Below, in pieces: positions 19,316 to 21,765 of a stretch of 47,399 nucleotides of DNA (positions within the stretch are counted from its first letter, which is position 1; each line of letters begins with the position of its first letter). This DNA is from a virus: IMG/VR virus record IMGVR_UViG_3300023082_000003, positions 1-47,399 of that record. One strand, 5' to 3'. A program made the translations under genes and the position numbers. The notes under the pieces were generated by a model. The model had not been told where the DNA came from and made no database searches. It was given only the letters and a program-made list of their open reading frames with translations.

Positions 19316-20329
19316 ATGAGTCAGCAGCACCAGATTCTGGTCGGCGATTGCATCGATATGATGCGGACGCTGCCGGACCAGTCCGTTCACACCTGCGTGA
19401 CCAGCCCGCCGTACTTCGGCTTGCGGGATTACGGCGTCGAGGGCCAGATCGGCCTGGAGGAAACGCCCGCCATGTTCATCGCGCGATTAGTCGCCGTGTT
19501 CCGAGAAGTGCGCCGAGTACTCCGCGACGACGGCACGATCTGGGTAAACATGGGTGACAGCTACGCAGGAAGCTGGGGAGCCCAAGGCAGGCCTCAAGGT
19601 GATGGGCAGATGTCCGGGCGCAGCGTGACGTCCGCGCGGCAGATCAACGAACACCCGCGATTCAAATCGGGCACCGGCGTGCGCGGTCGCGAGATGGGAA
19701 TGAAGTCAAAGGACCTTATGGGTATGCCTTGGCGGCTCGCTTTCGCGCTGCAGGACGATGGATGGTATTTGAGGCAGGACATCATCTGGAACAAGCCAAA
19801 CCCGATGCCTGAGAGCGTGCGAGATAGATGCACCAAGTCGCACGAATACATCTTCCTGCTGAGCAAATCGAAGAAGTACTACTTCGACCAGCCCGCCATT
19901 GCAGAAGATGCGTTAGAGCCGCGAGGCCCTGGCAACGTATCGCCCATAGAGGCACTGCCGGGAGAGCGGCCCACAGAAAATTCGAATATCCGTGGCTCGC
20001 TTCACAAAATCGGGCCGCGCTTCACCCGAAATAAGCGGAGCGTTTGGACGGTGGCCACGCACAGTTTCAAAGGCGCCCACTTCGCTACCTTCCCGCCTGA
20101 CCTGATCCGGCCTTGCATTCTCGCCGGCGCGCCGCGCGGCGGCGTCGTGCTGGACCCGTTCGGCGGCGCCGGTACCACGTCGCTGGTTTCGATGCAGGAA
20201 GGCCGTCGTTCGATCATCTGCGAGCTGAACCCTGATTACGCAGCCATGGCTCGCGCTCGCATAGAGGCTGCCTGGCTGGATGGCGCCGCGCAGATGGACG
20301 TCTTTCACGACGCGCCCCCGGCGGCCTGA
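19316..20329 (+). CDS. DNA methyltransferase, SPPY type (m4C/m6A)
   Basis: The 337-residue protein is an amino-methyltransferase. The catalytic motif IV, TSPPYFGLRDYG, comes first (Ser30-Tyr33) and the SAM-binding motif I, DPFGGAGTTSL, comes late (Asp280), so the order is the beta class used by many N4-cytosine and some N6-adenine enzymes. RVLRDDGTIWVNMGDSY and QDIIWNKPNPMPES are typical intervening segments. The region between ~85 and 135 is probably part of the target-recognition domain. No cognate endonuclease is nearby, so it probably protects phage DNA or regulates genes. A C5-methyltransferase gene follows 47 bases on. Confidence 0.92.
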   Translation: MSQQHQILVGDCIDMMRTLPDQSVHTCVTSPPYFGLRDYGVEGQIGLEETPAMFIARLVAVFREVRRVLRDDGTIWVNMGDSYAGSWGAQGRPQGDGQMSGRSVTSARQINEHPRFKSGTGVRGREMGMKSKDLMGMPWRLAFALQDDGWYLRQDIIWNKPNPMPESVRDRCTKSHEYIFLLSKSKKYYFDQPAIAEDALEPRGPGNVSPIEALPGERPTENSNIRGSLHKIGPRFTRNKRSVWTVATHSFKGAHFATFPPDLIRPCILAGAPRGGVVLDPFGGAGTTSLVSMQEGRRSIICELNPDYAAMARARIEAAWLDGAAQMDVFHDAPPAA

Positions 20330-20376: not shown

Positions 20377-21522
20377 ATGCAGATCGACTACGGCTCAGTC
20401 TGTTCCGGCATCGAGGCCGCGACAGCTGCCTGGCACCCGCTGGGCATGACACCGGCGTGGTTCGCCGAGATCGAACCCTTCCCGTCAGCGGTGCTGGCCC
20501 ACCATTACCCGCAAGTGCAGAACCACGGCGACATGACCAAGCTCGGGGCCCTGGTGCTGGCCGGTAAGATCAAGGCGCCAGCGGTGCTCGTCGGCGGCAC
20601 ACCCTGCCAAGCGTTCAGCGTGGCCGGTATGCGGCAAGGCATGCTGGATCCGCGCGGCGCACTCACCATCAAATATGTGGAGCTTGCAGATGCAGTTGAC
20701 CATGTTCGAACAGCCCGCGGCGATGACGAGTGTGTCGTCGTCTGGGAAAACGTTGTCGGCGTCCTCAGTGACAGATCCAACGCCTTCGGATGCTTTCTTG
20801 CGGCGCTTGCTGGGGAGGACAGCGAATTGCAGCCAGCAGGGGGTAAATGGACGCACGCTGGTTGTGTGTATGGACCCCGACGAACAGTCGCGTGGCGGGT
20901 ACTTGATGCCCAATATTTCGGCTTGGCCCAACAACGGCGCCGTGTGTTCGTTATCGCAAGTGCTCGAAGAGGATTCGATCCATCCGAGATACTTTTTGAG
21001 CGCGAAGGCAAGCGCCGGGATACTCCGCCGAACCGCGGCGAGGGGCACGATTTTGCCGGACATGCTCCTTTCGGCGCTGCATTGCAGTGTGGGTGCGGAT
21101 ATCTCTTCGAAGAAGAATGCGGGGCCTGGGGATGCGCAAACTGCGAGGGCGATGAAGGCCCTGCCGTAAGCGTGCTGGCTGGCGTGCCGGCTTACGGCGG
21201 CGATCGCAAAGAATCGCTTTTCCGCGCTGGAACACTGACTGCTCATGGCATACGCCATGACTTCGCCTCGGAAACGTTCATGGTTCACCCGGAGCAAGCC
21301 TATGCGTCTGGCCTGCTTACACCTGCTGCGGGCCGCGTTCGGCGGCTTACACCCATTGAGTGCGAGCGGCTTCAGGGCTTCCCCGACGGCTACACGCTGA
21401 TCCCCTGGCGCGGCAAGCCCGCCGGCGAATGCCCAGACGGTCCGCGCTATAAGGCGATCGGCAATAGTAAGGCCGTTCCCGTCGTGCGCTGGATCGGTGC
21501 GCGCCTCCTCGAACAAATCTGA
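20377..21522 (+). CDS. dcm: C5-cytosine DNA methyltransferase
   Basis: All main motifs are present: motif I near GSVCSGIEA, catalytic GGTPCQAFSVAG (Cys77), motif VI WENVVG (Glu124), motif VIII AQQRRRVFVIA (residues ~185-194), and motif X YKAIGNSKAVPV near 365. A five-cysteine insert (CGCGYLFEEECGAWGCANCE, residues 238-257) probably binds zinc and lies in the target-recognition region. It transfers a methyl group to cytosine C5; the target site cannot be read from sequence. A second reading frame with protein-like content is nested at 20690-21169, and codon choice in the dcm frame shifts there toward rarer codons. Confidence 0.93.
   Translation: MQIDYGSVCSGIEAATAAWHPLGMTPAWFAEIEPFPSAVLAHHYPQVQNHGDMTKLGALVLAGKIKAPAVLVGGTPCQAFSVAGMRQGMLDPRGALTIKYVELADAVDHVRTARGDDECVVVWENVVGVLSDRSNAFGCFLAALAGEDSELQPAGGKWTHAGCVYGPRRTVAWRVLDAQYFGLAQQRRRVFVIASARRGFDPSEILFEREGKRRDTPPNRGEGHDFAGHAPFGAALQCGCGYLFEEECGAWGCANCEGDEGPAVSVLAGVPAYGGDRKESLFRAGTLTAHGIRHDFASETFMVHPEQAYASGLLTPAAGRVRRLTPIECERLQGFPDGYTLIPWRGKPAGECPDGPRYKAIGNSKAVPVVRWIGARLLEQI
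20690..21169 (+). CDS. Nested out-of-frame ORF in dcm (159 aa)
   Basis: The frame is +1 relative to dcm and begins at ATG 20690 with GGAG 7 bases upstream. The product starts MQLTMFEQPAAMTSV, then has GRTLVVCMDPDEQSRGGYLM, NISAWPNNGAVCSLSQVLEE and a basic-hydrophobic YFLSAKASAGILRRTAARG segment. The last two resemble a family of phage proteins with a YFLS-K-ACAGILRRA pattern that I recall as separate genes near phage methyltransferases. It lies wholly within the dcm coding frame, whose own motifs are intact, so one stretch appears to encode two proteins. Function unknown. Confidence 0.55.
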   Translation: MQLTMFEQPAAMTSVSSSGKTLSASSVTDPTPSDAFLRRLLGRTANCSQQGVNGRTLVVCMDPDEQSRGGYLMPNISAWPNNGAVCSLSQVLEEDSIHPRYFLSAKASAGILRRTAARGTILPDMLLSALHCSVGADISSKKNAGPGDAQTARAMKALP

Positions 21523-21555
21523 ATCCATCGCGGCGCCATCTGCAGAGGCCATCCC

Positions 21556-21765
21556 ATGCCCGAACCCATTGAACCCGTCCCGCGCGTCTCGGCCACCGTA
21601 TTCCCCGGCCTGGACGGCAATCACCGCATCAGCCTTCACTGGTTCCATCAGATTCATCTGACACCCGCTGAAGCGCTGACCATTGCACGAGAAATCAACC
21701 AATACGCCATCGACGCCATGCGGGCTGACGGTGAGCGGGAGGAAGTAAGCCATGAATCAATGTAA
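21556..21765 (+). CDS. Small hypothetical protein (69 aa)
   Basis: AGAGG lies 7 bases before the ATG. The product (MPEPIEPVPRVSATVFPGLD ...) has an HRISLHWFHQIHLTPAEALT segment and an acidic end. The final 14 bases overlap the next gene. No family is recognised. Confidence 0.65.
   Translation: MPEPIEPVPRVSATVFPGLDGNHRISLHWFHQIHLTPAEALTIAREINQYAIDAMRADGEREEVSHESM

Follow-up and report, generated by a model that had tools for sequence, protein, structure and literature searches.

A +1-frame gene nested in a phage C5-cytosine methyltransferase gene probably encodes a second chain of the enzyme

The window analysed here, an entire virus record of 47,399 bases, was found to carry a C5-cytosine DNA methyltransferase (MTase) gene at 20377..21522 on the plus strand, within which a second long ORF lies in the +1 frame. 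The locus raises the question of whether this nested ORF is a gene and, if so, what its product does. The main-frame product, here designated alpha (381 aa), matched the Pfam family DNA_methylase (PF00145, E 6.5e-32) and phrog_116 (E 7e-81). Motifs IV, VI, VIII, IX and X were all found (PCQ, ENV, QQRRRVF, RRLTPIECERLQGFP and GNSK, respectively), and the catalytic PCQ and ENV together with motifs VIII and X identify alpha as a C5-cytosine MTase with intact catalytic motifs, as the initial annotation had it. The motif VIII core, by direct reading, is at 20929..20949 (plus strand) and overlaps the nested ORF, while motif IX, by motif inspection, is at 21340..21384 (plus strand). The nested ORF, here designated beta, occupies 20690..21169 on the plus strand (159 codons and a stop), and the position, frame and length first given for it were exact. 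Its ATG (20690..20692, plus strand) is formed from GAT|GCA (Asp-Ala) of the MTase frame, and the GGAG reported 7 nt upstream, which resembles a Shine-Dalgarno sequence, is present at 20679..20682 (plus strand). An N6/N4 DNA methyltransferase gene (19316-20329; PF01555, E 5.6e-47) adjoins the C5-MTase gene upstream, and an open frame of 422 codons runs antisense to it (20485-21753, minus strand).

In the window alone the open +1 frame is unremarkable, with 1.3 stops expected in synonymous shuffles and a probability of 0.21 that none occurs, and the case therefore rests on relatives. These were gathered by means of the MTase protein, in order to avoid selecting open frames, and the resulting sample comprised the 77 loci in which motif VIII could be recognised. 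The +1 frame was open for at least 140 codons and encoded the same protein in 77/77, its C-terminus having diverged in four; the +2 frame was typically open for about 30 codons. In Streptococcus phages 6.9 stops were expected in the nested frame and 0 were observed. Neither frequent nested-frame stops nor a lack of homologues, which the initial annotation had named as the evidence that would count against it, was found.

The MTase frame uses rarer codons inside the overlap, as had been remarked (mean log RSCU -0.09 inside versus +0.19 outside, P < 0.001 by permutation), and its third-position GC is 0.54 within the overlap versus 0.73 outside. Synonymous codon identity was determined for 63 dereplicated MTases at positions where the amino acid is conserved, for which codon usage predicts 0.34-0.37. 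The nested ORF gave 0.65 for its first half and 0.80 for its core, compared with 0.47 for the sequence upstream and 0.42 for that downstream, and the proposed check of synonymous sites in homologous MTase genes thus came out in favour of a second gene, with 0.80 in the core set against 0.42-0.47 outside. Substitutions were also classified by their effect in both frames; as the sequence pairs are non-independent, the ratios are to be read as effect sizes and not as formal P values. Inside the overlap dNN/dNS was 0.56 and dSN/dSS was 0.33 for the +1 frame, compared with 1.43 and 0.73 for the +2 control, and outside the overlap the +1 frame was without consistent constraint (dNN/dNS 0.95 and 1.09). 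Repeats within single clades gave 0.58 and 0.31 for Streptococcus and 0.55 and 0.32 for Acutalibacteraceae; in a short upstream stretch of the Streptococcus clade dNN/dNS was also low (0.60) but dSN/dSS was not (1.14). The signals for initiation are retained as well. The codon from which the nested start is formed is GAT or AAT in 63/63 relatives (gene-wide, GAT and AAT account for 46% and 31% of their respective codon pairs), the valine at the GGAG site is encoded by GTG in 54/63 versus 34% gene-wide, and GGAG or GGA precedes the nested start in most relatives.

Two explanations that dispense with a second protein have to be set against these data. Part of the conserved MTase sequence, motifs IV-VIII, lies in the nested region, where its codons can show through in the +1 frame, and the conservation seen there might be the trace that codon usage of a conserved MTase leaves in that frame. 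This is hardly credible, since synonymous sites are more conserved inside the overlap than in conserved motifs outside it, and since a nested copy of the hinge segment described below is absent from 26/26 single-chain MTases that have a motif VIII of their own. An RNA or DNA element within the MTase gene might equally lower synonymous variation and leave the open frame as a by-product, and synonymous constraint alone does not prove translation. However, the substitutions track +1 codons and not +2 codons (dSN/dSS 0.33 and 0.73), the +1 result was obtained in three clades, stops are absent where about seven are expected, and the start codon and ribosome-binding site are conserved, so that we give this explanation just as little credence. 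Both were rejected by the frame-specific substitution tests, and the element is refuted at the level of sequence. Judged by these comparisons, the overlap of 20377-21522 and 20690-21169 is dual coding, with purifying selection on the +1 frame and not on the +2 frame, and the overlapping gene pair suspected from the window is genuine.

A tblastn search with the nested protein matched 117 phage records (E <= 1e-5), and the matches listed overlie C5-MTase genes wherever that gene is annotated. The phages and hosts include Pseudomonas, Vibrio, P1, P7, Caulobacter, Mycobacterium, Akkermansia and Ruminococcus; other family members used as queries added elements of Streptococcus, Lactococcus, Listeria and Enterococcus, a Methanobacterium virus and a Methanomethylovorans plasmid. 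Grouped by host, the phages with beta are those of Pseudomonadota, Bacillota, Actinomycetota and Akkermansia; archaeal records and P1 dmt contain it too. Copies were nested in 156/160 cases in viral contigs and in about 76/80 in bacterial genomes, and the exceptions were contig ends, short remnants, diverged copies missed by the motif or cases of a broken main frame. No copy standing on its own turned up among the IMG/VR, GTDB, phage and plasmid records sampled. Thus the nested product does belong to a conserved phage family, as had been proposed, but the existence of relatives as separate genes was not supported, every complete copy sampled being nested. The impression of separate genes can be traced to records that annotate the nested ORF as a gene, as in Streptococcus phage MM1 (orf14), phage pST and Paenibacillus phage Lily (gp63); MM1 orf14 and Lily gp63, which look like separate entries, prove to be nested. 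Phrog_16143 was matched by 15/23 nested relatives, the window member matching weakly (E 4e-4). The window family and the MM1 family aligned with E 3.3e-29 in hhalign, the window-headed set in this comparison (A3) itself including six MM1-type rows. The window member accordingly combines a homologous nested protein, a +1 location inside a C5-MTase gene and dual-coding selection, the features by which the beta family is defined.

Some of these records already name the product. In MM1 (DQ113772) orf13 and orf14 have the same nested +1 layout and were deposited as alpha and beta subunits of a C5 methyltransferase; the record names beta without explaining it, and its beta differs from the window protein in being only about 22-25% identical. 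In Lily, gp63 is entered as 'g62 internal gene' and lies in the +1 frame of the C5-MTase gp62, but Lily differs from the window in belonging to the class of small MTases described below and in the C-terminus of its beta. Phage P1 Dmt carries the same nested ORF, unannotated, over its C5-MTase part, though dmt, unlike the window gene, is bifunctional and has an adenine MTase annotation too. The initial description of the pair as one of undescribed function is therefore right only in part, as the deposited name of MM1 orf14 is 'C5 methyltransferase beta subunit', PHROG 16143 is labelled DNA methyltransferase, and the two-polypeptide enzyme M.EcoHK31I is a biochemical precedent (PMC3404938).

In order to see what beta might contribute, its structure and distant relatives were considered. 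AlphaFold2 was run on 101 sequences, and in the model of beta residues 100-142 form a confident two-helix C-terminal part (block means of 93-97 pLDDT for residues 101-130). The remainder had low confidence, as could be expected of a chain that folds on its partner. Searches of solved structures and folds with beta, Foldseek included, gave nothing significant; Pfam and NCBIfam gave no credible match, a single weak match to metallothionein being due to chance, and the N-terminal half matched no known domain. A type II MTase profile, in contrast to these, was matched by 24/26 MM1-type betas (in one example at positions 239-291). The conserved core of beta (residues 69-131, GGYLMPNISAWPN...LPDMLLSAL; 20894..21082, plus strand), supported by alignments A1-A3, synonymous identity and the AlphaFold2 model, contains the segment SLSQVLEEDSIHPRYFLS at 20948..21001 (plus strand). 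The same DNA is read as FVIASARRGFDPSEILFE in the MTase frame.

Counterparts of this segment were noticed among plasmid MTases that matched nothing but the segment. In single-chain C5-MTases of Paenibacillus (L483, LRDVLEMQVDEKYYLS) and Bacteroides (L484, LKDILEDEVDDKFYLS) it belongs to the main frame, after motif VIII and before the target-recognition region, and no nested ORF is present there; we call it the hinge. Alignment to the in-frame hinge with hhalign gave E 1.5e-8 over 31 columns for MM1-type betas and E 7.5e-8 over 46 columns for the window-headed family, each value referring to one comparison and each match spanning only these 31-46 columns. A regular-expression count over the loci collected found the hinge only nested in 212 MTases, only in frame in 26, both ways in 0 and neither way in 68. 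The profile alignments show the core of beta to be homologous to the hinge of single-chain C5-MTases, and in this count the nested and the in-frame hinge exclude each other. The second polypeptide thus holds a conserved element of the enzyme, present in beta and absent from alpha.

We consider it probable, on what the sequences can tell, that an overlapping split C5-MTase is encoded here, its alpha chain by 20377-21522 and its beta chain by 20690-21169, with beta supplying the hinge in trans. Alpha would provide motifs I-VIII, the variable region and motifs IX-X, without the hinge of single-chain enzymes. Both genes would be carried on one mRNA, beta being initiated in the +1 frame at its own ribosome-binding site within alpha. 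Its C-terminal half (WPN..VCSLSQVLE...YFLS..A..GILRR.....LP..L..AL) would form the hinge and a small two-helix domain, which may bind alpha and complete or tune its small domain, such that full methylation would need both chains. As the window alpha keeps motifs I-X, it might nevertheless act alone. For M.SssI, artificial fragments reassemble best when the division falls after motif VIII and before the target-recognition domain (PMC3404938). In single-chain enzymes the hinge comes next after motif VIII, but in the window the two nearly coincide, and the arrangement may have arisen by a frameshifting deletion right after the motif VIII core of a single-chain ancestor. The hinge DNA would then have come to lie in the +1 frame, alpha reading it as FVIASARRGFDPSEILFE and internal translation preserving the hinge, and the upstream part of beta would have been overprinted on motifs IV-VIII. 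Convergence of a short peptide is the alternative to such a transfer of the hinge.

Beta could instead be a real protein with a function of its own and no structural part of the enzyme; it might, for instance, inhibit or regulate the MTase, or serve as an anti-restriction factor. Every catalytic motif is present in alpha, the N-terminal half of beta resembles no known domain, and P1 dmt, a phage MTase gene, has no restriction partner annotated beside it, all of which would suit such a role. We nevertheless judge it unlikely, because the core shows homology to a part of the MTase that is missing from alpha, and no copy of beta was found apart from an MTase in the samples searched. Ribosomal frameshifting might also give access to the second frame and yield an alpha-beta fusion with no separate beta, and in two loci (L060 and L181) the C-terminus of the MTase does run on in the nested frame behind a poly-G tract. 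With the nested ATG and ribosome-binding site conserved, and with the tract seen in only a few relatives and absent from the window, this is a very improbable account. The tracts, of 7, 15 and 6 bases in the close relatives L058 (3381-3520), L060 (3381-3600) and L181 (3381-3540), move the C-terminus of the MTase to the third frame (L058) or the nested frame (L060, L181), in what looks like phase variation by slipped strands.

The split enzyme favoured here can be compared with two known ones. In M.EcoHK31I (YGGCCR) beta (X82231) is encoded inside alpha in another frame. M.AquI is encoded by consecutive genes that are not nested. Two polypeptides of M.EcoHK31I make up one C5-MTase, with motif IX in the small polypeptide, and M.AquI is a naturally split enzyme of two subunits, divided in its variable region, and its small subunit holds motifs IX-X (PMC3404938). 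M.AquI resembles the proposed pair as a natural two-subunit C5-MTase, though the place of the split differs. M.EcoHK31I, compared by its published layout, shares with it a conserved enzyme element in the smaller polypeptide; however, that element is motif IX, whereas the window alpha keeps RRLTPIECERLQGFP and its beta carries the hinge, and the window enzyme is not of the M.EcoHK31I type proper. The sequence of M.EcoHK31I was not found in the E. coli genomes that were searched with P1-type and Com-linked MTase DNA, and the MTase_II profile had no match in Enterobacteriaceae genomes at E 1e-60.

A second class of nested genes fits M.EcoHK31I better than the window does, again by published layout. 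It consists of small C5-MTases from Acinetobacter, Salmonella, Klebsiella, Stenotrophomonas, Lily and mycobacteriophage SG4 (loci L273, 3809-4522; L436-L451; L454-L459), in which a +1 ORF of 165-350 codons covers nearly the whole gene, with 0 stops found where about 4-7 are expected in most. Motif IX is missing from their alpha, and a pattern search gave 23 cases in which the +1 product terminates in the motif-IX-like LNPxWVEWLMGxPxGW. Selection measured over the whole gene was less marked here (dSN/dSS 0.42 for the Acinetobacter type, no clear signal for the SG4 type), and the betas of the two classes cross-match weakly in PHROG profiles. With a motif-IX-like element in the +1 ORF, which is the layout of M.EcoHK31I, this class strengthens the view of a split enzyme.

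The two proteins would probably join as a single working enzyme in hundreds of phages, the laboratory phage P1 included. With somewhat less assurance than for the window itself, it seems likely that a large class of C5-MTases of phages and mobile elements are two-chain enzymes from overlapping genes, in which one segment has moved to the +1 frame, as the hinge in the window, P1 and MM1 and as a motif-IX-like element in the small MTases, and that this arrangement is old enough to be common to viruses that infect methanogens and to those of several bacterial phyla. The literature searched, which included few subscription papers, nowhere describes the nested gene as a feature of general occurrence; its breadth, the proof of dual coding and the exchange of the hinge appear to be undescribed, beta having been named only in isolated phages (MM1, Lily). 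There are few documented cases in DNA phages of long same-strand nested genes under strong selection, and the gene described here is found in hundreds of genomes, P1 dmt among them. For many phage MTases now annotated as one protein a subunit would be missing, a possible reason why expression failed or a specificity is unknown, and in this family the passage of a protein segment from one reading frame to another can be studied as a natural experiment.

A few relatives depart from the common arrangement. In L166 and L172 an intact nested frame accompanies a main MTase frame that is apparently broken or truncated upstream, and in mycobacteriophage Dove (L009, 1565-2683) the MTase is divided between the consecutive genes 107 and 108, the first of which contains the nested ORF. 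On an E. coli chromosome (L274, 3803-5009) a Mu-like com gene is followed by a C5-MTase gene with a nested +1 ORF, at the place where Mu has mom. Last, in P1-like E. coli plasmids (L001, 2637-3700) dmt is conserved over its first 722 bases and often replaced in the part that follows, a pattern that suggests a swap of the target-recognition region along with the tail of beta.
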